Origin: Patescibacteria group bacterium | GTDB lineage: Bacteria; Patescibacteriota; Gracilibacteria; UBA1369 | Direction: 5' to 3' | NCBI GenBank assembly: GCA_963169655.1 | Contig: CAUJCM010000001.1 | Span: 124,001-188,000, forward strand | Length of the DNA stretch: 64,000 nucleotides | In this document: in pieces, positions 20,811 to 38,124 of the stretch | How positions within the stretch are numbered: position 1 is the stretch's first letter | Layout: each line of letters begins with the position of its first letter | Notes under the pieces: generated by a model | What the model saw: the letters and a program-made list of their open reading frames with translations, nothing else | Database searches by the model: none | What the model was told of the DNA's origin: nothing | Position numbers and translations under genes: made by a program

Positions 20811-21479
20811 ATGGCTATACAAACAAATGATAATGATCAAAAAATAACAGATAATGATCAAGGCTTGTCTAAGGTAGATAAATCAATTCAATCAGGTGGT
20901 TTATCTAATATTATTTTAGTAATAGTTTTGGTTGGTTTAGCTGTTTTTGGAACTTTATTTTATTTCCAAAAAAATTGGATTTTAAAAAATACTGAAATAG
21001 TTGAGAAGCAAACTGAGGAATTAAATAAAGAAATTGATGCTTTAAAAGAAAATAAAGTTGAATTTAGTCAGAATGCTATGGATGCTTTAAAGAAAATTGA
21101 AGTAGATGAAATTCGCTGGTCAGATGTTATTGAAGAAGTGGCTAATTTAATGCCAAAAGATTCAAATGGAAGAGATAGAATTACAGTTTTATCTTATTCT
21201 GGATCTGGGAATGGAAGAATTACTTTGAATACAGTTACTCAACCAAGCTCTTTACCTCCATTTGATGATGTTTCAAATATAATTTCTACTTTTAATAAAA
21301 GTGTTTTCTTTAAAAATGCTTTTGTACCTTCTATTTCTAAAGGTACAAATGATGATGGATCTACTACTTTGAGTTTTATGCTTAATATGGAATATCAAAA
21401 AGCTGATACTGGTTCGCTAGATTTGAAATTAAATGAAAATACAAAAATACCAACAACTAAAGTTCCTGTTAACAAATAA
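20811..21479 (+). CDS. PilN-like type IV pilus inner-membrane assembly protein
   Basis: 222 residues. A polar N-terminal tail (1-31) is followed by one membrane helix (about 32-52, NIILVIVLVGLAVFGTLFYF), a coiled coil (about 55-95), and a compact domain that starts with the RWSDVIEEVANLMP helix. This is the topology of PilN, which with PilO forms the periplasmic alignment complex of the type IV pilus machine. Sequence similarity is weak; the call rests on topology plus position as the first gene before pilO- and pilC-like genes. No pilM or pilB is present nearby. Confidence 0.7.
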   Translation: MAIQTNDNDQKITDNDQGLSKVDKSIQSGGLSNIILVIVLVGLAVFGTLFYFQKNWILKNTEIVEKQTEELNKEIDALKENKVEFSQNAMDALKKIEVDEIRWSDVIEEVANLMPKDSNGRDRITVLSYSGSGNGRITLNTVTQPSSLPPFDDVSNIISTFNKSVFFKNAFVPSISKGTNDDGSTTLSFMLNMEYQKADTGSLDLKLNENTKIPTTKVPVNK

Positions 21480-21484
21480 AAATT

Positions 21485-22027
21485 ATGAATAATAAAAATC
21501 AATCATCAATCATTAGTTTAGTTTTACTTTTAATTATAGTAGGAATTGGACTTCTTTGGTTTAAACCAAATTGGGATAAAGTGAGAGCTTTACAAGTTAC
21601 TGAAAAAGCGAGACAAGAAACATTAAAAACTACTCAAAAAACTTTAGATGATTTAAAACTTGCTCAAGCTGAAATTGCTGATAGTAGTGAAATTGATCAA
21701 GAAATGGTACTTACATCAATTCCAGAAAATTTTAATCAGGATTTATTAATTAGTGATTTAAACCGAATTGCAAAAGAGACTAATGTAAATATTGGTAGTG
21801 TTAGTTTTTCTGCTCCTACAACTTCCAGTGAAACTATTAAAAGAGCCACAATTAATATGAGTTTAACTGGAGGTAATGATGAATTAATTAGATTTTTAAA
21901 AGGGATTGAAAATAATTCAAGAAAGATAACTGTAAAAAGTATTACTGTTCAATATGGACAAATTGAAGAGATTTCTAGAATCAATTTTAATTTATCAATG
22001 GAAACTTATTTCCAAAATGCTTTGTAA
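21485..22027 (+). CDS. PilO-like type IV pilus assembly protein
   Basis: 180 residues. One membrane helix (about 10-26, IISLVLLLIIVGIGLLW) precedes a coiled coil (about 30-72) and a ferredoxin-like domain: IPENFNQDLLISDLNRIAKETNVNIGSV, then GNDELIRFLKGIENNSRKITVKSITV. This is the PilO pattern. PilO pairs with PilN to link the outer parts of the pilus machine to the inner-membrane platform. The gene follows the PilN-like gene by five bases and precedes pilC. Confidence 0.78.
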   Translation: MNNKNQSSIISLVLLLIIVGIGLLWFKPNWDKVRALQVTEKARQETLKTTQKTLDDLKLAQAEIADSSEIDQEMVLTSIPENFNQDLLISDLNRIAKETNVNIGSVSFSAPTTSSETIKRATINMSLTGGNDELIRFLKGIENNSRKITVKSITVQYGQIEEISRINFNLSMETYFQNAL

Positions 22028-22051
22028 AATAACTGTTTATTAAACATTTAC

Positions 22052-23239
22052 ATGGAAGATCAAAATATTAATTATCAAAACTTATTTAAAAAGTCAGTTA
22101 CTGAAGATGCAAGGAAGAATATTGTGTATGGACTTTATGATAATAGTAATGAAAGTTTATCTAAAAGGATTGATGATTTTTTGATAGACCATAGTAAAGT
22201 GTCACTTCAAGAAAAAGCATATTTTTTCCAACTTCTTGCTGTGATGATTGATGCTGGAATAGATATTGTGACTGCAATTAGTATTTTAGCTAATAAAACT
22301 TCAAATGTTCGTTTTGCAAGAGTTTTAAATACGATTGTTTATAATGTTAAACAAGGAACAAAGTTTTCTGTGGCTATGTCACATTTTCCAGATTTGTTTG
22401 ATGAGATGATTATTGGAGTTGTGAGATCAGGTGAAGCAGCTGGTAATTTGGATAAAATGTTAATGAAGTTAGCTGAACAATTAAATAAAACTAATGCTTT
22501 ACAGATTAAATTAATTTCTGCTGCGGTTTATCCAATAATGGTTTTAGGTGTTTTGGTAATAGCTGCGAGTTTAATGTTGGTTTTTGTGATTCCGACTTTA
22601 AGTAATTTGCTAATACAAGGTGGTTTGGAAGAAAAAGATTTTCCTTTAATGACTAGAGTTTTAATTAATTCTTCTAATTTTCTACAAAATTATTGGTGGT
22701 TAGTTATTTTGGGATTAGTGACTTTGTATTTTATGTTTAAAGTATGGAAAGAATCTGAGAATGGAAAAATAAAATGGGATGCAGATAAATTAAAATTTCC
22801 AGTTATTGGAATTTTACTTCGAAAAGTTTATATGTTGAGATTTGTTTCTAATCTTGGCATTTTGATTGAATCAGGTTTACCAGTGATTAAGACTTTGGAA
22901 ATTATTGCTCAAGGAATGGCTTCTCCACTTTATTCAATGAAAATTTGGGAGGCAATTAATCAAATTAAAAATGGTAAGAAAATTTCTGAATCTATTGAAG
23001 ATGCCCCGTTTTTATTTGATAGAACTGTTACTCAAATGCTATCAGTTGGGGAACAGACTGCTTCTATTGGAAAAATTTCTGAAAAAATTGCGACTCAATA
23101 TGATTTGGAAATTGATAATAGTTTAAAGGGGTTAATGAGTTTATTTGAACCAGTAATGATTATTTTAGTTGGTTTGACTGTGGCTGTTTTGGCTTTAGCA
23201 ATAATGACACCAATTTTCCAAATGTCTCAATTAGTATAA
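22052..23239 (+). CDS. pilC: Type IV pilus/type II secretion inner-membrane platform protein (PilC/GspF)
   Basis: 395 residues. Two T2SSF domains are visible. The first begins FFQLLAVMIDAGIDIVTAIS (about 68-87) and ends with the membrane helix IMVLGVLVIAASLMLVFVIP. The second begins FVSNLGILIESGLPVIKTLE (about 270) and ends with the last membrane helix EPVMIILVGLTVAVLALAIM. Between them are a membrane helix (WWLVILGLVTLYFMF) and a cytoplasmic segment. PilC couples the pilus ATPases to pilin extraction from the membrane. The matching retraction ATPase PilT is encoded elsewhere, at 35015-36067. Confidence 0.93.
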   Translation: MEDQNINYQNLFKKSVTEDARKNIVYGLYDNSNESLSKRIDDFLIDHSKVSLQEKAYFFQLLAVMIDAGIDIVTAISILANKTSNVRFARVLNTIVYNVKQGTKFSVAMSHFPDLFDEMIIGVVRSGEAAGNLDKMLMKLAEQLNKTNALQIKLISAAVYPIMVLGVLVIAASLMLVFVIPTLSNLLIQGGLEEKDFPLMTRVLINSSNFLQNYWWLVILGLVTLYFMFKVWKESENGKIKWDADKLKFPVIGILLRKVYMLRFVSNLGILIESGLPVIKTLEIIAQGMASPLYSMKIWEAINQIKNGKKISESIEDAPFLFDRTVTQMLSVGEQTASIGKISEKIATQYDLEIDNSLKGLMSLFEPVMIILVGLTVAVLALAIMTPIFQMSQLV

Positions 23240-23245
23240 TAAATT

Positions 23246-23857
23246 ATGAATAAAGAGCCTTTAAATAAAGAAAAACAGGCTTTTACACTAATAGAATTAT
23301 TAATTGTAATTGCTATTATTGGGCTTTTAACAGTATTAACTGTTTTAAATTTTAATTTCGTACAACAAAGAGCCAAATTGAATTTTGCTACTGAGACTTT
23401 AGTTGCTACTTTTAGAGAGGTTCAAACTTTGGCAAAGAGTGGAAAATTGATTAGCGAAACTGCTGTTGAAGATACAGATAATAAAAAATTGCAATGTTAT
23501 GCGATTAAAATTGTTTTAGGAGATGGAGAAGGAAAAGGAGTTTATAGGGGACAAAGTAATTATATTTCAATTCCTGAGAGTCAAGATGAAAAAATTGATA
23601 GTTGTAAAAAAATAGATGATCAAAATTGGCAAAGAGATCCAGTTTTTGACAAAACTATGATGATAGTTAGTGATAGACCTGATAGTGATAGTTTAGAGTT
23701 TTATTTTAAACCTCCTTTTGGGAATGTTGTGAGAAGTGATAATGATCAATTTAAGGAACTTTATACTTTTACTATTTCATTATTATCTAATTCTGATTTG
23801 AGGGAGATTGTTAGTTTAAATTTGAATAATGGGAATATACAAAGGGAAAAATTGTAG
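23246..23857 (+). CDS. Type IV pilin-like protein (pseudopilin, GspH-like)
   Basis: 203 residues. A class III prepilin signal is clear: a short charged leader ending in KQA, cleavage before F, then FTLIELLIVIAIIGLLTVL with the conserved Glu at +5 (about residues 12-32). A long alpha1 helix continues through VQQRAKLNFATETLVATFRE, typical of GspH/FimT-type minor pilins, and the C-terminal globular part is beta-rich. It is cut by a prepilin peptidase not present in the window. It is the first of four pilin or pilin-like proteins in the operon. Confidence 0.88.
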   Translation: MNKEPLNKEKQAFTLIELLIVIAIIGLLTVLTVLNFNFVQQRAKLNFATETLVATFREVQTLAKSGKLISETAVEDTDNKKLQCYAIKIVLGDGEGKGVYRGQSNYISIPESQDEKIDSCKKIDDQNWQRDPVFDKTMMIVSDRPDSDSLEFYFKPPFGNVVRSDNDQFKELYTFTISLLSNSDLREIVSLNLNNGNIQREKL

Positions 23858-23891
23858 AATAAAAAGAGAGGAAAAGATAGCATAAAAGTTC

Positions 23892-23910
23892 ATTTTTTGG
23901 TATAATTAAA
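23892..23910 (+). promoter_or_regulatory. Extended -10 promoter core before the second pseudopilin gene; shared with the pilT operon
   Basis: ATTTTTTGGTATAATTAAA (23892-23910) contains a perfect TATAAT (23901-23906) with TGG before it. The same 19 bases occur, in the direction of transcription, upstream of the pilT operon (36683-36701, minus). No good -35 hexamer is seen. It probably gives internal transcription of the pilin part of the operon. Confidence 0.55.
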
Positions 23911-23928
23911 GGATAATATTATACTAAA

Positions 23929-24603
23929 ATGAATTGGAATTTTAAGAAAAATAACCAGAAGAGTTTAAAGGCATTTACTTTACCAGAAGTTATAGTTTCT
24001 TTTAGTGTACTTTTAATGGTTATTGTGGCTGCTTCCAATATATTATCTATGGTTATTCGAACAAACGGAGAGATTGTAGATAGTACTTTGGCTTATGGTT
24101 TGGCGCAAGAAGGTATTGAAAGTATGAGATTTATTCGTGATTCGAATGCAAGACTTGGACTAGATTTTGATGGGAGTAAAAGTGATTATATTGGTCCTTG
24201 GGGAGAAAAATTAAATGGTGGAAATTTTGTATTGATAGATAAAATTAATAATTTACCTGGTTGCGGATTGATTAATTTAGCGGGGTGTTTGCCAGTTGAG
24301 TTAAAAAGATTGGACGGTGATATTGAAGATTTATTAATGAATACTAATGCATTAATTTATTTGAGAGAGGAAAGTATTTCGGATGATATTCCATTTCAAT
24401 ATTTACAAGTTAAGGACCAAGTGGAAATAGATGATTCTTTTAAGCCAACTAAATTTCATCGGGTGATTTTGGTTGAACCTTTGAAATATAAAGATTCTGA
24501 TGAAGATGAAGTTTTAAGAGTTAGTGTTATTGTTGCTTGGAAATCTACTGGGAATATAGATAAGAAAATAGTTTTAACTACTGAATTAACTGATTGGAAA
24601 TAA
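23929..24603 (+). CDS. Type IV pilin-like protein (PilV-like pseudopilin)
   Basis: 224 residues. The prepilin signal (AFTLPEVIVSFSVLLMVIVA, cleavage before F, Glu at +5) occupies about residues 15-36. The helix continues into ILSMVIRTNGEIVDSTLAYGLAQEGIESMRFIRDSN, which matches the PilV/GspI type. The globular part has two cysteines (GCGLINLAGC) that may form a disulfide. It begins 71 bases after the previous pseudopilin, behind its own likely promoter, and its stop overlaps the next gene's start (TAATG). Confidence 0.85.
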   Translation: MNWNFKKNNQKSLKAFTLPEVIVSFSVLLMVIVAASNILSMVIRTNGEIVDSTLAYGLAQEGIESMRFIRDSNARLGLDFDGSKSDYIGPWGEKLNGGNFVLIDKINNLPGCGLINLAGCLPVELKRLDGDIEDLLMNTNALIYLREESISDDIPFQYLQVKDQVEIDDSFKPTKFHRVILVEPLKYKDSDEDEVLRVSVIVAWKSTGNIDKKIVLTTELTDWK

Positions 24604-25262
24604 TGAAAAAAAATATCTTAAAAAAAGGTTTTACATTAGTCGAGCTTTTAATAGCAATGAGTGTTTTTATGATTTTTATGATAGTTGTTTCAAATTCATA
24701 TATAGATATTATTCGAGCTCAAAAGTCGGCAAATGAAACACGACTTATTTATACTGAATTAAGAGAATTTGTAGATCTTGTTAATAATGAAATGAGAGAA
24801 GGAGAGATTGATTATTTTTGTTATGATACTGATTTAAATAATGAGCCTGCTGATAGAGGTCGATGTGGAGATACTACGAAATTTACTGTTGATACTGGAA
24901 ATAATTTGCGAACTATTTCTAAAGATGGACTTCGAAGTAGTATGATTGCTTTTATTTCTGCAGAAGACTCAGAAGAAGGTGGAAAGATTTGCCAACAAAA
25001 ATATGTTTTAGCTGAATCTGGTGGTTGGGTTAAAGATGGAAATAGTGAGGAGGATTGTGAAGAATTGGCTTTTAAGAATTTAAAGGTAAATAATTTATAT
25101 TTTGAAATTTTACCTCAAAAAAATCCTAATATTTTTGAAAAAGGGGACTTATCTAATCAGATTCAGCCAATGGTAAGAATGTATCTTGACGTTGGATCAA
25201 AGGTAAAAAATGTTCATTTTGATTTAAAATTTCAAACTTCTTTTACTTCAAGAAATAACTAA
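24603..25262 (+). CDS. Type IV pilin-like protein (PilW/GspJ-like pseudopilin)
   Basis: About 219 residues from the ATG at 24603, which overlaps the previous stop (TAATG). A TTG nine bases upstream would also be open, but the ATG is the better start. The prepilin signal is KKGFTLVELLIAMSVFMIFM, with cleavage after Gly and Glu at +5. The following helix (YIDIIRAQKSANETRLIYTELREFV) and the beta-rich C-terminal part with four cysteines fit PilW/GspJ minor pilins, which help start pilus assembly. It overlaps the next gene by one base. Confidence 0.85.
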   Translation: MKKNILKKGFTLVELLIAMSVFMIFMIVVSNSYIDIIRAQKSANETRLIYTELREFVDLVNNEMREGEIDYFCYDTDLNNEPADRGRCGDTTKFTVDTGNNLRTISKDGLRSSMIAFISAEDSEEGGKICQQKYVLAESGGWVKDGNSEEDCEELAFKNLKVNNLYFEILPQKNPNIFEKGDLSNQIQPMVRMYLDVGSKVKNVHFDLKFQTSFTSRNN

Positions 25263-26554
25263 TGAAAAATAAAAAATTAAAAAAAGGTTCTGCATTACTA
25301 ATCACTATCTTGATGATGGGATTACTGATGACTTTGACTTTGGGAATTAGTTCATTAGTTTTGAGAGAAATAAAAATTAATCAATCTATTGTCGATTCAA
25401 ATAAAGCTTATTATGCAGCTGAGGCAGGAGTAGAAAATGCTTTACTTGAATTAAAGAAGAATTTAGCTGGTTTTGAGCCAAAAGGAGAATTTAATGTAAA
25501 TAGTAATGAAAAAGTTGATGATCAAGAATTTTTAAAAAGATATAATCCAAGTTATCATTATCAATATTCAGTATCAAACCAATCTGATTCGGTTCCAAGT
25601 TTTCCAGATGACCAACCAATATTTGTAAGTAACTTGGCTAAAACAGATATGAGTGGAAATACATCAGTTAAATGTGCTATTTCTAATAGTTTAAATCCAT
25701 TAGCAATAGCTAAAGATAAAAAAGAATTATATCAGGATTGCGCTAGTGCTACTTACAGAAAATTAGGTTTAAATGAAACAGTTATTATTCCTTTATATAG
25801 TACAAATGAGGATGGACAGCCAGAAAATGTAGAAGATTTTATAGTAGAGTATTATTTGAATGTAAAAAATGATGATGATTTGGCGAGTACTTTTAGAGGT
25901 ATTTCTTTAGAGAAATTTGATGTATTGAGATGGAAGATTTATGGTTTATCAAAAGATCCTAATCTAGCTCGTCGAACTGAATCAATTGCTGATTTTTATC
26001 CTGGGGTTACTGGTAATTCAGAAAATGAGCCTGTGTGTATAGGAACTGATGGTAATTTTACAAGTATTGGAGAAGAAAGATGTTTCTTCCCTAGTTTGTC
26101 AATTCAAGATCAAGATGGTAGTGTTACAGGTCTGTGGTCAGCAGCCAGAGAATGTTATATGACTGAAGCTGGAGATAAGGTTACTGGTGGTGTTGGGGTT
26201 AAAAAAGCAGGTGAAGGAGATCCTGGTTGTTCTATGAGAGAGTTTATTAAATCGCATGATCAAAACTATTTAGTTTTAACAAATATGGTTAATCCAGATA
26301 TTGTGGGGATCACTAATGTAAGGGATCCTGAACAACTTCCTCGTGCTGATATTTATTATCGTGTGTTAGCAGAAAATAAAGAAGGTGCGCCTAAATTAGT
26401 AAAAGATTTTGCTGAGATTAAAAGTTTTGGTTTTTCTCTAAATGACAATGTTATTAAAAGTTTAAATGTGAATTATAAAGCTCCTGAATTTTTACCTGTA
26501 TTTAATTTTGCTTTGTATAGGACTAGAGAAACAGCTCCAACTAAAAAAGAATAA
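25262..26554 (+). CDS. PilX-like type IV pilus protein
   Basis: 430 residues. The N terminus KKGSALLITILMMGLLMTLTL is a pilin-like membrane helix preceded by a short basic leader, followed by SKAYYAAEAGVENALLEL-like sequence (here NKAYYAAEAGVENALLELKK), the hallmark of PilX and GspK-like proteins. The large remainder (about 70-430) is extracellular, beta-rich, and has about six cysteines. PilX proteins sit at the pilus tip or act in priming. The start overlaps the previous gene by one base. Confidence 0.82.
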   Translation: MKNKKLKKGSALLITILMMGLLMTLTLGISSLVLREIKINQSIVDSNKAYYAAEAGVENALLELKKNLAGFEPKGEFNVNSNEKVDDQEFLKRYNPSYHYQYSVSNQSDSVPSFPDDQPIFVSNLAKTDMSGNTSVKCAISNSLNPLAIAKDKKELYQDCASATYRKLGLNETVIIPLYSTNEDGQPENVEDFIVEYYLNVKNDDDLASTFRGISLEKFDVLRWKIYGLSKDPNLARRTESIADFYPGVTGNSENEPVCIGTDGNFTSIGEERCFFPSLSIQDQDGSVTGLWSAARECYMTEAGDKVTGGVGVKKAGEGDPGCSMREFIKSHDQNYLVLTNMVNPDIVGITNVRDPEQLPRADIYYRVLAENKEGAPKLVKDFAEIKSFGFSLNDNVIKSLNVNYKAPEFLPVFNFALYRTRETAPTKKE

Positions 26555-30416: not shown

Positions 30417-31919
30417 ATGGGAAAAAATACATTTTATGTGACTACTTCAATTGTATATGCTAATTCAACTCCTCATATTGGTTTTGCAATGGAGATTTTA
30501 CAAGCCGATATTCTTGCACGCTTTCATAGAGCTTTAGGAGTAGAAACTTTTTATTTAACTGGTACTGATGAACATGGGCTGAAGATTGCTCAAATGGCTG
30601 AAGAAAAGAAAATGACTCCACAAGAATTGGTTGATCAAAATGCTCAAGAATTTAAAAGACTTAATAAGGAATTAAATATTTCTAATGATTATTTTGTTCG
30701 TACAACTGATAAAAATCATGAAGAATACGCTCAAATAATGTGGCAAAAACTTGTAGATGCGGGAGATATTTATAAAGCAGAATATCAAGGACTTTATTGC
30801 ATTGGATGTGAAAGATATTATTTAGAAAAGGAATTACTTCCTGGATGTATTTGTCCTTATCATAAAAAAGAAGCTATTTCTATTAAAGAAGAAAATTATT
30901 TTTTCAGATTATCTAAATATGCGGATACTATTCGTGAAAAGATTAAAAATGATCAGGTTAAAATTCTTCCAGAATCTCGAAAAAATGAAATTTTGAGCTT
31001 TTTAGAAGAAGAGGTTCATGATATTAGTTTTTCAAGACCTCGTGAATCTGTAAAATGGGGGATTGAAATACCAAATGATCCTAGTCAATTGATGTATGTT
31101 TGGTGTGATGCTTTAACTAATTATTTATCTGTTGTTGATCGTGATAAATTTTGGCCTGCTGATGTTCAAATTATTGGTAAAGATATTTTGAGATTTCATG
31201 CTGTTTACTGGATTGGAATGCTTTTAAGTGCTGGTTTTGAATTACCAAAAATTATTATGGTGCACGGTTTTATTACTTCAGAAGGAGAAAAGATGAGTAA
31301 ATCTTTAGGTAATGTAAAAAATCCTTTTGATTTTATTGAAAGATATGGGAGAGATGCTTTGAGATATTATTTACTTCGTGAAATTCCAACTTTTGGGGAT
31401 GGTGATTTTAGCCAAGAGAGATTTGATATTTTATATAATGAAGAATTAGCTAATACTTTTGGGAATTTAGTGAGTAGAGTTTTAGCTATGAATAAAAAAT
31501 ATTTTGATCAAAAGATTCCTAAAAAGGGGAGTGATGATGGTTTTAACAAGATAATTGAAGGTAAATGGAAGTTTTTGAGAGAAAATTTAGAGAATTTAAA
31601 TATTAAGAAAGCAATTGAAGAGATTTTGAATCTAGGTTATCAAGCTAATAAATATGTAGATGATCAAAAGCCTTGGGTTTTAGCAAAAGAAGATACTGAA
31701 AAATTATCACAAGTTATTTATAATTTACTTTTGATAATTAAAAATGTTGGATTAATGCTTGGTATCTTTTTACCTGATACTGCAGAGAAAATTTTAAAGG
31801 TATTTGGATCAGGTTTTGAAATAAAGAGTTTGTCTTGGAAAGATATTTCTAGTTTTCTAAATTTAGAGGAAGGAGAATTATTGGGTGAAGTTGGAATTTT
31901 GTTCCCGAAGGTAGAATAG
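30417..31919 (+). CDS. metG: Methionyl-tRNA synthetase
   Basis: 500 residues. It charges tRNA-Met with methionine. The class I motifs are PHIGF (about 19-23, in STPHIGFAMEI) and KMSKS (about 291, in GEKMSKSLGN). The inserted connective domain has a zinc-type CIGCERYY and CICPYH arrangement (about 124-146). FDWVIKFM-type features of the anticodon-binding helical domain are replaced by the usual NTFGNLVSRVLAMNKKYF and NKYVDDQKPWVLAK. No C-terminal tRNA-binding (Trbp111) domain is present, so it is the short form. A G-rich repeat begins 61 bases downstream. Confidence 0.96.
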   Translation: MGKNTFYVTTSIVYANSTPHIGFAMEILQADILARFHRALGVETFYLTGTDEHGLKIAQMAEEKKMTPQELVDQNAQEFKRLNKELNISNDYFVRTTDKNHEEYAQIMWQKLVDAGDIYKAEYQGLYCIGCERYYLEKELLPGCICPYHKKEAISIKEENYFFRLSKYADTIREKIKNDQVKILPESRKNEILSFLEEEVHDISFSRPRESVKWGIEIPNDPSQLMYVWCDALTNYLSVVDRDKFWPADVQIIGKDILRFHAVYWIGMLLSAGFELPKIIMVHGFITSEGEKMSKSLGNVKNPFDFIERYGRDALRYYLLREIPTFGDGDFSQERFDILYNEELANTFGNLVSRVLAMNKKYFDQKIPKKGSDDGFNKIIEGKWKFLRENLENLNIKKAIEEILNLGYQANKYVDDQKPWVLAKEDTEKLSQVIYNLLLIIKNVGLMLGIFLPDTAEKILKVFGSGFEIKSLSWKDISSFLNLEEGELLGEVGILFPKVE

Positions 31920-32126: not shown

Positions 32127-32705
32127 TTAAGATTGAGGAGGTTGTATAATATCACTTCCGTCGCTACCACTAGTAGTTTTTCCTTTATCATTACTTTTAG
32201 TTTCTGGTGAATCTGGTGGTGTATTTTCGGTTGATTGTTCTGTTGTTGACGTTTCTTGATTACTATTTGCGTCAATTATAACAGTTAAAACTGTTCTAAT
32301 TATCACCCATGAAAATATAATAATTACTAACCCAATTACTGCCCATTGTAGTGTTTTTTTTGCTTTTTCAATTAGTGCTTGATCACCATGTGAAACAACT
32401 GCGTAAAGTCCACTTATTGCAATAATAATTATGGCGATTGGGGCAGCCAAATTGATTAAAGCACCTGCCAAAACTTGAAGAGTATAATTTATTAATGCAG
32501 TTTCACTTCCTTCTTTTTTTAAAGTTTCCTCTCCAATAATTACACCAGGAGAGTTTTGAGGTTTTAATGCTGGATCTAAAGTTAGACGCGCAATTAATTG
32601 TGAATTTTGAAATGAAGAAGCGTAAGTTTGAGGAATTACTAGGGAGAAAATACTAAGGAAGCTTAGGAGTGAAATAAGTAGTAATTTTAATTTTAATATT
32701 TTCAT
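32127..32705 (-). CDS. VirB2/TrbC-like pilin-family membrane protein (paralogue 5)
   Basis: 192 residues. A signal peptide (about 1-29, ending QTYA-S) is followed by a short extracytoplasmic region, then the two-helix core: TM1 IAIIIIAISGLYAVV, a short basic loop GDQALIEKAKKTL, and TM2 WAVIGLVIIIFSWVII. A Ser/Thr/Pro-rich tail of about 50 residues ends the protein. The core resembles VirB2/TrbC-type conjugative pilins (the Mbov_0395-like group seen in Patescibacteria). It is the last of five such genes in a row behind pilT. Family placement is from topology and the GxxxxxxKAKKxLxWxxIGL pattern, not from a search. Confidence 0.75.
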   Translation of the reverse strand: MKILKLKLLLISLLSFLSIFSLVIPQTYASSFQNSQLIARLTLDPALKPQNSPGVIIGEETLKKEGSETALINYTLQVLAGALINLAAPIAIIIIAISGLYAVVSHGDQALIEKAKKTLQWAVIGLVIIIFSWVIIRTVLTVIIDANSNQETSTTEQSTENTPPDSPETKSNDKGKTTSGSDGSDIIQPPQS

Positions 32706-32716
32706 TGATTGTGTTG

Positions 32717-33298
32717 TTAATTTCGGTTCATATTTTGAGTACCTCCTCCATCTGAAGCTCCGCTATATTTTCCTGGTGTTGCATTGGTAGCTGGAGCAGC
32801 TGGAGCTGCTGGAGCTGCTGAACTTTGAGCTGGTGCTTCTGTGGAAGAGTTACCTGTTGTATTGGTTTGTCCTGTTCCAGCCGTAAAGAATTGAAGATTT
32901 GCTACTCCATAAACGAGTCCATAGGCTGCTGCGATAATTATTAATCCAATTAATGAGTAAAATAGTAATTTTTTTGCTTTATCAATAAGATCTGATGAAC
33001 CTCTTGCACTAATAAACATTACACCTCCTGCTGTAAAAGATAATAATGCAAGACCTCCGCTAATATTTAAAAGAACTTTTATGATTCCTGATAAGATAGT
33101 TGTCCAACTTTTTTTATTGGCTAATTTATTTACTGCTTGAATATTTGTTTGACTCATGCTTTCTGTATTTTCACCTTTATAAGTATATTGTTGAAATAAA
33201 ACATCTACAGAAGATTGAGCTGATACAAAGATAGGAATACTTAAAAGTATTGTTAAGGTAATTAAGATTAATATTATTTTGTTTTTTAAGTTTTTCAT
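32717..33298 (-). CDS. VirB2/TrbC-like pilin-family membrane protein (paralogue 4)
   Basis: About 193 residues from the ATG at 33298; an ATG at 33322 is also open but would overlap the gene before. The signal peptide ends near IFVSA-Q. The two-helix core is SGGLALLSFTAGGVMFIS, loop ARGSSDLIDKAKKLL, then FYSLIGLIIIAAAYGLVYGV. The C-terminal 60 residues are rich in Ala, Pro, Thr, Ser and Gly with an APAAPAAPAT stretch, probably an exposed flexible tail. The long tail distinguishes it from paralogue 3. Confidence 0.75.
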   Translation of the reverse strand: MKNLKNKIILILITLTILLSIPIFVSAQSSVDVLFQQYTYKGENTESMSQTNIQAVNKLANKKSWTTILSGIIKVLLNISGGLALLSFTAGGVMFISARGSSDLIDKAKKLLFYSLIGLIIIAAAYGLVYGVANLQFFTAGTGQTNTTGNSSTEAPAQSSAAPAAPAAPATNATPGKYSGASDGGGTQNMNRN

Positions 33299-33305
33299 AA
33301 ATATT

Positions 33306-33755
33306 TTATAAACTTCCAACATTTATTGAGGCGATAATTGCTACTATTGCATAAGATAAGCCTGCAATTATGATTCCGATTAATGCCCACATTAAAGATG
33401 ATTTTGCTTTATTTGCTTTTTCTGGATCTCCAAAAGCTGCTAAATATTGAATTCCACTAATAATTACAAATAACAATGCAACCGCTCCTATCATACCGAT
33501 AATTGTTGAGGCGATTCCTGGTAATATAGTATTTTGTACATATGCTTTATTTCCTTTATTCGATTGGTCATGAGGAAGAAATAATTTATCGTTAACTGGG
33601 ATTATTGGTGGTTGTGTTACTCCGGCTGGTGTATTTTGATTAACTTCACTTGGAGTATCTTCTTGTGCAAAAACAGTTAAATTAAAACTACTTAGGAGAC
33701 ATAAACTTAAGAATAATAATTTGAGTTTAGTTTTTAATGTTTGTGTATTTTTCAT
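33306..33755 (-). CDS. VirB2/TrbC-like pilin-family membrane protein (paralogue 3)
   Basis: 149 residues, the most compact of the five. The signal peptide ends near TVFA-Q. After about 50 extracytoplasmic residues come TM1 (IIGMIGAVALLFVIISGIQYL), the loop AAFGDPEKANKAKSSL and TM2 (WALIGIIIAGLSYAIVAII). The FGDPEKANKAK loop is the form most typical of this pilin-like family. The stop codon of the previous gene and the start of this one touch at 33755. Confidence 0.8.
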   Translation of the reverse strand: MKNTQTLKTKLKLLFLSLCLLSSFNLTVFAQEDTPSEVNQNTPAGVTQPPIIPVNDKLFLPHDQSNKGNKAYVQNTILPGIASTIIGMIGAVALLFVIISGIQYLAAFGDPEKANKAKSSLMWALIGIIIAGLSYAIVAIIASINVGSL

Positions 33756-34492
33756 TATTTAACGAAGAAGTTTGGGTTAATAGTATAAAGTATTACAGCT
33801 GAAAAAAATAATACTACTAAACCTGTGATACTTTTTTTGATTAAATTATTTGCTTGAGTAATTCTTTCAGTACTATCTCCAGCGCTGGCTCTCATAATTC
33901 CTGCTAAAATTATAATCAATACGGCTAAAAATCCGCCAATTGTAGCCATATATGTATATATTTTCCCCATATAATAATAGAGCAAATTGGTGCCGGTTGG
34001 AGTTACATAAATCATCACTGCTTCACAAGTTGTATAATCTGAATCGGTAATTTTATTCTCTGGTATGCAACTGTCTACATAAGTTGTGGTACATTTGGTC
34101 ACTTTTGGTGTTGCTTGGGGATTTGCTGTGGTATTTGTTGAACCAGAAGCAGTTGGGTTTGGAGTTGCTCCTTGCCCACTACTTGGTGTTAATTCTGGAT
34201 TTTTATTACATACTGTTTGTCTATAACATCTATGAGTTACATCACCATCTGCCCTTCCCATTGGCTCTTCAGTGATAACTACGATATTTCCTTTTAAATA
34301 CGCTTCTGATGTGTCCTGTTCTGTTTTGGTAGCTCCCGCTTGATTATTTAAATATGAACATTGAAATTTTGTAGGGTCAGGGGTTTTTGATGTACTAGTA
34401 TCATCTTGAGCTAATACAGTATTAAAAATTCCTCCTTGTAAAGTAAACAAGGTGATAATAAGCAATATTTTAATTATTATTTTTTTATACAT
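33755..34492 (-). CDS. VirB2/TrbC-like membrane protein with Cys-containing ectodomain (paralogue 2)
   Basis: 245 residues. A signal peptide (about 1-28, TVLA-Q) is followed by an extracytoplasmic domain of about 140 residues with six or more cysteines (QCSY, HRCYRQTVC, TKCTTTYVDSC, YTTC) and a Pro/Thr/Ser/Asn-rich middle (about 95-125). The C-terminal two-helix core is GGFLAVLIIILAGIMRA, loop SAGDSTERITQANNLI, then ITGLVVLFFSAVILYTI. The cysteines suggest disulfides and a specialised role such as a tip or adhesin subunit. It overlaps both neighbours by one base. Confidence 0.72.
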   Translation of the reverse strand: MYKKIIIKILLIITLFTLQGGIFNTVLAQDDTSTSKTPDPTKFQCSYLNNQAGATKTEQDTSEAYLKGNIVVITEEPMGRADGDVTHRCYRQTVCNKNPELTPSSGQGATPNPTASGSTNTTANPQATPKVTKCTTTYVDSCIPENKITDSDYTTCEAVMIYVTPTGTNLLYYYMGKIYTYMATIGGFLAVLIIILAGIMRASAGDSTERITQANNLIKKSITGLVVLFFSAVILYTINPNFFVK

Positions 34493-35022
34493 TAACTTGG
34501 TGCTGTTTCGAAAAATATATTTTGTACGAAAGAAATTATAAAATAAGATGATAAAGTTAAAACTAAACCAATAATTGCTTTAGATAAAATTTCTTTTCCT
34601 TGATTTACTTGATTTTCATTACCTGCTGAACTCATTAACATAAAACCCCCAACTACAACTGCAAGGAAACTTAATGAAGCTGCTGAAAGTGCAATAAAAT
34701 TAATGATTTGAAGTATTAAACTTGCAATAGGATTACTAGATTCAAAATATTTTTGTTCTTGTTTACCTGTAATATTTTCATCAACTTGACCTGTTTGAAT
34801 AGTTAAATATTTTTTAACATTAAAAGATCTGTAATCAGGGTTATTGGATTTTTCAGAAGTATCAGTAGGAGTTTGACTTTGTGGAGCAGGCTGCTCAGGA
34901 GTATCATCAGCAAATACAATTAAAGGTTGTTTGATAAAATTGAGGTTTAGTAACACTAAACTACTTATTAAAAATAATTTTGAAAAAGAAAAAAAATTTT
35001 TTTTAAGAAAATTTTTATACAT
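34492..35022 (-). CDS. VirB2/TrbC-like pilin-family membrane protein (paralogue 1)
   Basis: About 176 residues from the ATG at 35022, which overlaps the pilT stop by eight bases; a TTG at 35031 is less likely. The signal peptide ends near IVFA-D. A Pro/Gln/Thr-rich stretch and a short domain follow, then TM1 (IALSAASLSFLAVVVGGFMLM), loop SSAGNENQVNQGKEIL and TM2 (AIIGLVLTLSSYFIISFV). It is the first of five tandem relatives directly after pilT and is translationally coupled to it. Confidence 0.75.
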   Translation of the reverse strand: MYKNFLKKNFFSFSKLFLISSLVLLNLNFIKQPLIVFADDTPEQPAPQSQTPTDTSEKSNNPDYRSFNVKKYLTIQTGQVDENITGKQEQKYFESSNPIASLILQIINFIALSAASLSFLAVVVGGFMLMSSAGNENQVNQGKEILSKAIIGLVLTLSSYFIISFVQNIFFETAPS

Positions 35023-36067
35023 TTTGATCAATAATATCTTCTGGGATATTTTCTAAAGCTGTTTCTTCATCAATAATTCCGGCTTCAAGTAGTTCGCCAA
35101 CTGATTTTTTCATTGTTTGCATTCCTTCTTTAAATCCAGTTTCAATTGCAGAGTTAAGTTGATGAGTTTTATTTTTACGAATCATATTAGCTACAGCACT
35201 GTTGTTGACCATTATTTCAAGCGCAGCAACTCTGCCATTACCGTCTTTTGTTTTCATTAAAGTTTGCCAAACTACTGCTCTTAAAGTGTTGGAAAGTTGC
35301 AGACGAATTTGATTTTGTTGATTGGTTGGAAAGGCATCGATAATACGGTCTATTGCAGCAGCAGCTCCATTAGTATGTAAAGTTGCAAAAACTAAGTGAC
35401 CTGTTTCTGCAGCTGTTAATGCAAGAGCAATTGTTTCAAGATCTCTCATTTCACCAACTAAAATTACATCTGGATCTTCACGAAGAGCAGATTTTAAAGC
35501 TCTTTGAAAACTTAATGTATGAGTTCCAACTTCTCTTTGTTCAATGATACTTTTTACATTTTCATGGACATATTCGATTGGATCTTCAACTGTGATGATA
35601 TGTCTTGCACTATTAATATTAACTTCATTAACCATCGCAGCAAGTGTAGTTGATTTACCAGAACCTGTGGCTCCTGTAACTAAAACTAATCCTTGAGGCG
35701 ATGTTGCAATATCTTTTAATTTATCTGGTAAACCTAATTCGTCTAAAGTATGAACATTTTCTGGAATTACTCTAAAAGCTGCGGCAATTCCTTTTCTTTG
35801 AACAAAAACATTAACACGAAAACGTGCAATAGTTGGCACTTCAAGTGAAAAATCCATATCTAAACTAGTTGCAAATTCTTCTCTTTGTTTTTCTGTTAAA
35901 ATTTCAGAAATATAATCTTCAGCCATTTTTTTGGATAGAACTGGATGTTCCTCAATAGGTACTAAATCTCCATTAATACGAAGGATTGGCTTTGTCCCAG
36001 TTGTGATATAGATATCAGAAGCTTTGTATTGTACTGCTGTTCTGAAAATTTTGTCTAATTGAGCCAT
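35015..36067 (-). CDS. pilT: Type IV pilus retraction ATPase PilT
   Basis: 350 residues, the normal PilT length. The N-terminal PAS-like domain begins AVQYKASDIYITTGTKPILRI. The ATPase core has Walker A GATGSGKST (about 130), the Asp box (ITVEDPIEYVH), Walker B (DVILVGEMRDLETIALAL) and the His box (GHLVFATLHTNGA). PilT-specific features are MIRKNKTHQLNSAIETG and GMQTMKKSVGELLEAGII. PilT powers pilus retraction (twitching, DNA uptake). It is 21 bases after the unknown gene 36089-36655 and directly before five VirB2-like genes, an unusual setting away from the pilN-pilO-pilC operon. Confidence 0.93.
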   Translation of the reverse strand: MAQLDKIFRTAVQYKASDIYITTGTKPILRINGDLVPIEEHPVLSKKMAEDYISEILTEKQREEFATSLDMDFSLEVPTIARFRVNVFVQRKGIAAAFRVIPENVHTLDELGLPDKLKDIATSPQGLVLVTGATGSGKSTTLAAMVNEVNINSARHIITVEDPIEYVHENVKSIIEQREVGTHTLSFQRALKSALREDPDVILVGEMRDLETIALALTAAETGHLVFATLHTNGAAAAIDRIIDAFPTNQQNQIRLQLSNTLRAVVWQTLMKTKDGNGRVAALEIMVNNSAVANMIRKNKTHQLNSAIETGFKEGMQTMKKSVGELLEAGIIDEETALENIPEDIIDQNV

Positions 36068-36088
36068 ATTTTTTGTTTTTTATTTTTA

Positions 36089-36655
36089 TTAAATTTGAAA
36101 TTCATCTGGTTCTTCACTACCGTCAAATTGAGGTAAAACATTTTCAATTGCAGCCCATTCACTTTCTTCGTTTTCAGGGACTACAATTGTTACTTTATCT
36201 CCGATTTCTGCTTTGAAATATGTTACTGAAGCTAGTAGCACTTTATATGATTTTGCATTGGCAATAACTCTATATTGTCCTTCGTCATAAGTTAAAGTTC
36301 CAACAATTTTTTTCCTTTCTACTGGGCCAATTTGTTTGTAAAGGAAAGTGCCATCTTCAGTGATAGTTAACTTTAAAATATCACCAGGAATGAGTTTTGA
36401 TTTTGATGCATAGTTAGCTGGTACAGAATACATTCTACCTTCTGGCCCCATCATATTTTGACCGTCGAAACTACCTTCAATAATATGGCTTTCACCGATT
36501 TGCTTATGACTGCTTAATTTTTCAGCCATTTTGGCGATTTGATTATTTGCTGATTCTCCACTCAATTCAGCGATCATTTGTTTTGCTGATCTTATTGATG
36601 CTTCTGCACTGTCGAGGATTTCTTTAATTAAGGCTATTTTAGATGATTTTGACAT
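36089..36655 (-). CDS. Unknown protein with OB-like strands, first gene of the pilT operon
   Basis: 188 residues, no signal peptide or membrane helix. The first 50 residues are helical (EILDSAEASIRSAKQMIAEL). The rest (about 60-165) is beta-rich and seems to hold two small barrels. One includes GRMYSVPANYASKSKLIPGD with ILKLTITEDG; the second has RKKIVGTLTYDEGQYRVIA and GDKVTIVVPENEE. This is reminiscent of OB or TOBE folds or cell-wall-type SH3 folds, but I do not recognise the family. The tail is acidic. It heads the operon with pilT, so a regulatory or docking role for the ATPase is possible. Confidence 0.6.
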   Translation of the reverse strand: MSKSSKIALIKEILDSAEASIRSAKQMIAELSGESANNQIAKMAEKLSSHKQIGESHIIEGSFDGQNMMGPEGRMYSVPANYASKSKLIPGDILKLTITEDGTFLYKQIGPVERKKIVGTLTYDEGQYRVIANAKSYKVLLASVTYFKAEIGDKVTIVVPENEESEWAAIENVLPQFDGSEEPDEFQI

Positions 36656-36767: not shown

Positions 36768-37121
36768 TTACTTTTGTTTTTTCTTTAAATATTTTTCAAG
36801 TAAAAATCTGCGGGTAGCACCAATATTATTGAAAATACGGAATGTAAATACAAATGCAGCAGCAAGGTACAGGTCTAAACCTAGTTTATCTCCCAAAATA
36901 GTGATGGCAATAGAAATAATTATATTAAATAGAAGTCCTGAAATAAAAATTATTCCATCAAAATTATCTTCTGTTGCTTCAGCCCTGATTGCACCAAATA
37001 AAGAATCAAATAATCCCATTATCATTACTGCTGAATATTTTGTGAGTTCAATAGGTATAGAAAAATTTAATGCAAATCCCGTAATTATACCGATAATTAT
37101 TCCTAAAAATGCCCAAATCAT
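36768..37121 (-). CDS. sbp: Small basic protein family (DUF1290/Sbp)
   Basis: 117 residues with four hydrophobic helices: MIWAFLGIIIGIITGFAL, SAVMIMGLFDSLFGAIRA, IIFISGLLFNIIISIAIT, and LYLAAAFVFTFRIFNN. The basic C terminus is YLKKKQK. FDSLFGAIRA and RIFNNIGATRR-type motifs match the DUF1290/Sbp family, membrane proteins usually encoded near ftsQ and ftsZ in Firmicutes. Here the gene lies one base after the FtsQ-like gene, supporting a cell-division context. Its molecular role is not known. Confidence 0.85.
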   Translation of the reverse strand: MIWAFLGIIIGIITGFALNFSIPIELTKYSAVMIMGLFDSLFGAIRAEATEDNFDGIIFISGLLFNIIISIAITILGDKLGLDLYLAAAFVFTFRIFNNIGATRRFLLEKYLKKKQK

Positions 37122-37122
37122 A

Positions 37123-38124
37123 TTATTTTAATTTATAAATTACTTTTTCAGCGTTAGCACTTGTTATTCTTAAGTCTATATACTGTATTGGCAAATTGTA
37201 AATATCTAATTTTGGTAAAGCTCTTTTTAACTTGTCAACTTGTATAAGCATGTCTTTACTCATATCAAACCAAACATCAAAATCTCTTTCAGTTTTTAAG
37301 TGTACTTCTTTGGCAACTTTTAAATATTTAATTTCTATTACTTTAAGCCCAAACTTTTCTTCAAATAAATTTACTAGTTTAATGATATAGTCTAGTTTTT
37401 CTTTATTTATTGGAAATTCATTAAGTTTTAGAGGTTTATTTGATTCAAGTCTGATATATGGCAAATTTGGATCTTCATCATTTTCAGTGATAAGCATGCC
37501 GTTAATATTGATACCAAATTTTTTTTCAATACGAAGTCCGTCTGGATCTTGAATATTTTCTACTAAATTGGCAATTACAGGATATTTTTCCAGGTTAATT
37601 TCAATACTATGAGGATATATTTTTTTTATGTCAGCAATTTTATAACGAGGATCTGATTGAATGATTAATTTGGATAGATTTTTTTCATTATACAAGATTA
37701 AGTTTTGGTTTAATAAAGCTTTACTAATTAAATTATTGAGAAATAGATTGCTAGTTATTTCTGTTTCTTCATCATAAATAGTAAAATCATAAATAATAAA
37801 GATTTCTGAAAAGAATAATATATATGTGGCTCCGATAGTACTTATGATTAATACAATGGAAATTAATAGTTTTTTCCAAAATGAACTATTGGTTTGGGTT
37901 AATCTTTTGGGTGGATTTGTTAAAGCACTTTGAGGAAGCTTTTTAAATCTTTTACGACGCTTTAGTATTTGTGAAGAAAAAGCTTCATTATTATGAGGTA
38001 AACTGTATGGGGATTTAGTTTGAGCAATAGAAGTCTTTCCAGTAATTTTTCTTTTACTTTTAAGATCAAGTTTTTTTTGCTTATCAAGAAAGCTTAATTT
38101 TTTTCTTTTTCTGAATATTCCCAT
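37123..38124 (-). CDS. ftsQ: FtsQ/DivIB-like cell division protein
   Basis: 333 residues. A long basic cytoplasmic tail (1-90) is followed by one membrane helix (about 92-112, LLISIVLIISTIGATYILFF) and an outside region with the POTRA-like pattern of FtsQ: NLIIQSDPRY-type text followed by IKKIYPHSIEINLEKYPVIA, which is the hallmark 'P.tl.v.v.er.p.a' stretch, and later VDKLKRALPKLDIYN and IQYIDLRI. FtsQ/DivIB bridges early and late divisome proteins. Position next to sbp supports the call. The cytoplasmic tail is unusually long and lysine-rich. Confidence 0.75.
   Translation of the reverse strand: MGIFRKRKKLSFLDKQKKLDLKSKRKITGKTSIAQTKSPYSLPHNNEAFSSQILKRRKRFKKLPQSALTNPPKRLTQTNSSFWKKLLISIVLIISTIGATYILFFSEIFIIYDFTIYDEETEITSNLFLNNLISKALLNQNLILYNEKNLSKLIIQSDPRYKIADIKKIYPHSIEINLEKYPVIANLVENIQDPDGLRIEKKFGININGMLITENDEDPNLPYIRLESNKPLKLNEFPINKEKLDYIIKLVNLFEEKFGLKVIEIKYLKVAKEVHLKTERDFDVWFDMSKDMLIQVDKLKRALPKLDIYNLPIQYIDLRITSANAEKVIYKLK

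Follow-up and report, generated by a model that had tools for sequence, protein, structure and literature searches.

Do five small genes behind pilT encode a pilus, a secretion device or something else? The question is raised by a 64,000-nucleotide stretch of DNA (the window; positions 124,001 to 188,000 of contig CAUJCM010000001.1, assembly GCA_963169655.1) from a Patescibacteria genome of 1.02 Mb that is 98.7% complete. In it, pilT, which encodes the retraction-type ATPase of type IV pili, is followed by an array of five genes for proteins that resemble VirB2, the pilin of type IV secretion systems (T4SS). A first-pass annotation, made from the sequence alone, had suggested either a retractable or secretory appendage unlike the two standard systems or a set of related subunits with different tails. 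Of these ideas the latter has fared best; tails and ectodomains do differ. We conclude from sequence comparison that the five proteins are old, distinct and position-orthologous subunits in the order to which the genome belongs. We further propose, with a probability of about one half, that they are five non-interchangeable subunits of one heteromeric VirB2-like membrane complex, which would work with type IV pili rather than with a T4SS.

Count, order and identity of the array proteins

The seven open reading frames (ORFs) of the locus were confirmed, all on the minus strand (Table 1), and with them the described succession of PilT and five closely packed, signal-peptide-bearing two-helix proteins. 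By eye, all five share one plan: signal peptide, ectodomain, helix, short G-x-x-x...A-K-x loop and second helix. Neighbouring genes share 1-17 nt or are separated by 11 nt, in line with the overlapping or near-touching junctions reported at first; judging from these junctions, PilT and the array probably share one transcript. A scan for promoters and terminators gave no excess over shuffled sequence, and a PHROGs search yielded nothing of note.

The array was compared across 41 genomes of the order (Ca. Peregrinibacteria/Peribacteria), many of them metagenomic and some fragmented, with family labels as assigned by the tool. From these genomes we took the surroundings of PilT and of array matches, with simple ORFs serving as genes in the relatives. 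Domains were counted with our own model, seeded with the proteins of the window; PF18895 confirmed the count for the window and the family for 74 of 75 array proteins, so that the count in each relative is that of our model. Exactly five domains were present in 30/30 intact arrays from 14 families, and this recurrence argues that the array is no chance feature. Outside these 30 stand G013, with six genes, and three arrays cut by contig ends. In six of the 30 arrays the five domains are spread over four genes, with positions 3 and 4 joined in a single gene each time; a named relative (L193) has an apparent 4+5 fusion.

Position within the array is recognisable from sequence. Position models built with one family left out at a time assigned all 150 domains correctly, against 26-31 of 150 in four runs with shuffled positions. 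Between genera, domains at the same position are 49-78% identical, while domains at different positions within the window share 22-34%, and each position bears its own signature, such as the LYTINPNFF that ends subunit 2. That subunit, for which a single copy per genome was established, has one strong match in 37 of the 41 genomes. Of the four without a match, G001 (140 contigs) has its array cut by a contig end, G010 (130 contigs) has a contig that ends soon after PilT, and G016 and G038 are 86% and 73% complete. It is the fixed count, order and position identity that lead us to regard the proteins as five old, distinct subunits.

Similar arrays have been described before: in Patescibacteria, VirB2-like genes form arrays of 2-11 genes, often tied to virB4, which were read as tandem variation (PMC12102498). 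The array described here shares with them the protein family, the tandem two-helix proteins and the low identity within an array. It differs in its fixed number of five, in position orthology over 14 families, and in lying near type IV pilus genes with virB4 distant or absent; PilT is not mentioned for the published arrays. What is new is thus the fixed five-domain, position-orthologous array in this order, to which, on the sequences at hand, we conclude that the tandem-variation reading does not apply.

PilT, type IV pilus genes and VirB4 around the array

The PilT of the window carries the expected motifs by eye (Walker A GATGSGKST, GEMRD, ATLHTN and VANMIRK) and belongs to a lineage that we call PilT-1. 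Linkage was counted from the coordinates of separate searches, combined by eye. Contig ends truncate four of the 31 PilT-1 loci found in the order; the array lies downstream on the same strand at 23 of the 27 informative loci and is not beside PilT-1 at L070, L084, L085 and L088, where the contig continues. The conserved neighbourhood with pilT that the first-pass annotation named as support was therefore found within the order, with gaps, and fails outside it: none of 60 loci read there has an array-type gene near PilT, most being pilB-pilT-pilC. The PilT-1 proteins of the order form one clade (support 100/97), apart from the PilTs of those operons. The order shares the PilT family, PilC and prepilins with the pilB-pilT-pilC operons of other Patescibacteria and differs from them in this separate PilT clade, placed in front of a VirB2-like array. 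PilT is a real, lineage-specific but inconstant neighbour of the array. Some genomes have a second PilT lineage, likewise a single clade (100/100), with other neighbours (L056, L057, L059-L061, L065, L067, L071, L076, L079, L081, L086, L091 and L092); at L061 and L076, the two loci inspected, these neighbours resemble pyrH, frr, a site-2 protease gene and dnaA.

There is an ordinary reason for PilT to be present at the array, because a type IV pilus operon lies nearby at 20811-26554. It had been overlooked and was found by Pfam matches (PF04350, PF00482 and PF07963 for PilO, PilC and prepilins). PilC lies within 15 kb of subunit 2, on the same contig, in at least 22 genomes; apart from G013, G035 and G039, which are taken up below, the other genomes have a short contig, gave no match for the array or for PilC, or fall beyond the PilC matches listed. 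The operon opens a plus-strand run that metG closes. Convergent metG stands beside 31 of the 32 arrays seen (the exception is G027), which makes it the most constant neighbour of the array, presumably a functionally unrelated one.

For VirB4, a search with PF12846 missed nearly all copies, and PF19044 and the source genome's own VirB4 were used instead. Each of the two queries detected VirB4 in 36 of the 41 genomes. The source-genome copy, about 122 kb distant from the array, sits between ORFs resembling gyrA and gyrB; it is a VirB4-like protein of 939 aa (L110:7950-10769, contig C1 of the source genome), in a stretch without a hairpin-domain gene. Among the well-assembled genomes that were compared, G008 and G025 have VirB4 more than 100 kb from the array, and G018 has it on another contig. 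Neither search matched VirB4 in G014, G026 and G034, which are 100, 99 and 97% complete and possess subunit 2 with a linked PilC. Being encoded together with VirB4 or other T4SS genes, by which a T4SS component would be recognised, is not seen at the array. Because PilC is linked and VirB4 distant or undetected, the linkage favours type IV pili over a VirB4-dependent system, as judged from neighbourhood and presence only.

Alternatively, the array could supply the pilus or translocon for a Patescibacteria T4SS, with VirB4 at another site in the genome, and its closeness to type IV pilus genes would be coincidence. We regard this as a serious though unlikely alternative. The family bears the name T4SS pilin, VirB2-like genes lie near virB4 in 1,135 assemblies (PMC12102498), and most genomes of the order do have a VirB4. 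Moreover, Ca. Southlakia epibionticum has a series of predicted T4SS-type pilins that is essential for epibiotic growth (PMC10633639); the present array resembles it as another such series in a Patescibacteria genome, but the S. epibionticum series sits within a T4SS cluster, whereas no T4SS gene is near the array here. The same distance or separation of VirB4 in the well-assembled genomes, and the three nearly complete genomes that keep the array with no detectable VirB4, speak against this explanation.

The gene upstream of PilT, which the first-pass annotation had included in the system, was considered as a member and rejected; it is left out because many Patescibacteria carry it without PilT or the array. 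AlphaFold2 models its product as a coiled coil with two OB-like domains, for which Foldseek gave weak OB/S1-type matches; Pfam and NCBIfam have no match for the family. At least 545 relatives were confirmed in one scan, widespread in Patescibacteria, and those with neither PilT nor array in reach come from genomes titled Doudnabacteria, Kazan, Kuenenbacteria, Moranbacteria and others. The relatives that share the block, traced via this protein, have record titles that are mostly Ca. Peregrinibacteria or Peribacteria. Further upstream, at 36768-38124, the window encodes a DUF1290 protein and an FtsQ-like ORF in an order conserved with this gene, and together they look like a cell-division neighbourhood.

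Table 1. Features of the array locus and its surroundings in the window
Feature	Position	Strand	Evidence and remarks
VirB2-like subunit 1	34492..35031	-	179 aa from TTG, 176 aa from likelier in-frame ATG at 35022; PF18895 27.2 bits; position test; signature SY.IV.FVQS
VirB2-like subunit 2	33755..34492	-	245 aa; Cys-containing beta ectodomain; C-terminal signature LYTINPNFF; PF18895 32.6 bits; model pLDDT 77
VirB2-like subunit 3	33306..33755	-	149 aa; PF18895 41.6 bits; position test; fused with subunit 4 in some families
VirB2-like subunit 4	32717..33322	-	201 aa; alternative ATG at 33298; PF18895 27.5 bits; position test
VirB2-like subunit 5	32127..32705	-	192 aa; long low-complexity C-terminal tail; PF18895 33.6 bits, PF04956 E = 0.0033; position test
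PilT (PilT-1 lineage), type IV pilus retraction-type ATPase	35015..36067	-	350 aa; TIGR01420 473.5 bits, cut-off 319.1
Coiled coil and tandem OB-fold protein, outside the system	36089..36655	-	AlphaFold2 pLDDT 80.5
metG, methionyl-tRNA synthetase by sequence	30417..31919	+	convergent to array; not a functional part
PilN-like	20811-21479	+	position and sequence only
PilO	21485-22027	+	Pfam match
PilC	22052-23239	+	Pfam match
Prepilin	23246-23857	+	PF07963
Prepilin	23929-24603	+	PF07963, below cut-off
Prepilin	24594-25262	+	PF07963
PilX-like	25262-26554	+	position and sequence only

Family and fold of the subunits

The array proteins are not type IV prepilins, because they have sites like those of signal peptidase I (by eye, VFA↓DD, VLA↓QDD, VFA↓QED, VSA↓QSS and TYA↓SSF); for a type III signal with N-methylation motif, PF07963 gave no match in the five. 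That all of them match VirB2-type pilins, as had been expected, is borne out by one family model and weakly by the other. With T4SS_pilin (PF18895) the five exceed the Pfam gathering cut-off of 26.6 bits (range 27.2-41.6), and at E <= 0.01 it matches 74 of 75 array proteins from 15 genomes. With VirB2/TrbC (PF04956) the window stays below cut-off, its sole contact being subunit 5 (18.0 bits vs 27.9), and 17 of the 75 array proteins are matched at E <= 0.01, the best relative at 2.8e-7. Signs of a structural kinship with VirB2/TrbC are mixed. The AlphaFold2 model of subunit 2 does show a signal helix, a small beta domain and a long helical hairpin (167-203/208-238), but Foldseek with this hairpin returned no VirB2 structure and nothing at E <= 0.001, its matches being generic and non-significant (ATP synthase subunit c among them). 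A PDB sequence search for VirB2 structures was negative as well. Plausibly, the array works like a VirB2-type assembly.

The same hairpin domain occurs at a second conserved locus (L045:5420-12223 on contig C4 of the source genome; also L104, L105, L108 and L109), where two proteins with three hairpin domains each precede a giant protein of 1,552-1,659 aa with one; in the source genome's copy the giant protein also contains PKD domains. This locus has seven positions, and a leave-one-out test recovered 35/35 over five genomes. A triple-domain protein of the source genome passes the PF04956 cut-off (34.8 bits).

Could the array proteins then be membrane anchors or envelope proteins with no role in a pilus or in secretion, the hairpin being a reusable membrane module? 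Such reuse is seen in the source genome, where the domain anchors a 1,562-residue protein with PKD domains and occurs three to a protein, and the generic Foldseek matches agree with it. Yet the array's association with PilT and with the type IV pilus operon is conserved, all five proteins exceed the PF18895 cut-off and some relatives match PF04956 clearly, which makes this explanation improbable.

A proposed five-part complex and its possible work

What comparison contributes to the proposed heteromeric complex is the five domains, their fixed order and an orthologous family for each position; how the complex would work is suggested by protein features and neighbourhood. Each subunit would be exported by Sec, cleaved by signal peptidase I and left in the membrane as a hairpin, its basic loop cytoplasmic and its ectodomain outside. 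The five would assemble together, and subunits 1 and 2 may bear the largest outer domains. Subunit 1 is enlarged to 826 aa in G029 (L099:9872-12352; median 164), and subunit 2 reaches 417 aa in G021 (L093:10027-11280). With PilT on one side and PilN-like, PilO, PilC and prepilins on the other, the complex may serve the type IV pilus of these cells, independently of a VirB4-driven T4SS, perhaps as a membrane collar, anchor or channel during pilus extension and retraction at host contact.

Several observations weigh against this proposal. In at least eight genomes from five families (f2, f3, f10, f15 and f16) the array has no adjacent PilT (G013, G014, G021, G027, G028, G029, G037 and G039), and neighbourhood is not function: metG, presumably unrelated, is a steadier neighbour than PilT. 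In G013, G035 and G039 the contig of the array has no PilC among the matches listed. A VirB4 gene does exist elsewhere in 36 of the 41 genomes, which makes cooperation with a T4SS at a distance possible, and to these points the Foldseek result has to be added.

The number five itself invites a comparison, since VirB2-type pili are five-start or pentameric-layer assemblies (F pilus, PMC5018250; R388 T4SS, PMC9259494). The helical subunits and five-start geometry of the VirB2/TraA conjugative pilus recall the five subunits here, although that filament is made from one pilin and assembled by a T4SS, whereas the array has five genes and no structural match was found. Each subunit might take one fixed place in a hetero-pentameric layer, so that every strand in a five-start tube or ring of VirB2 type would have a gene of its own; the type IV pilus, and not a T4SS, would drive this complex or be gated by it. 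We hold this to be quite improbable, because the number five alone proves nothing and the second locus has seven domains.

Tandem duplication and diversification into interchangeable pilins that help in matching different hosts, an idea put forward for the Patescibacteria arrays in PMC12102498, is highly improbable and for this order largely refuted: ectodomains do diverge faster than helices (25-51% vs 49-78% identity between genera) and the arrays read outside the order have 2 to 8 genes that the position models do not clearly assign, bar a subunit-2-like first gene in some, but count, order and position identity are fixed over 14 families, each position has its own signature, and after recurrent duplication the adjacent genes of one genome should resemble each other most.

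VirB2-like arrays occur widely in Patescibacteria. They have so far been interpreted as pilin variation, and in the sole species tested a related array proved essential. A fixed array of five subunits, found in one order next to type IV pilus genes, shifts the question from which pilin variant a cell carries to what five-part machine it builds, and a five-part reading yields clear predictions for stoichiometry and partners.

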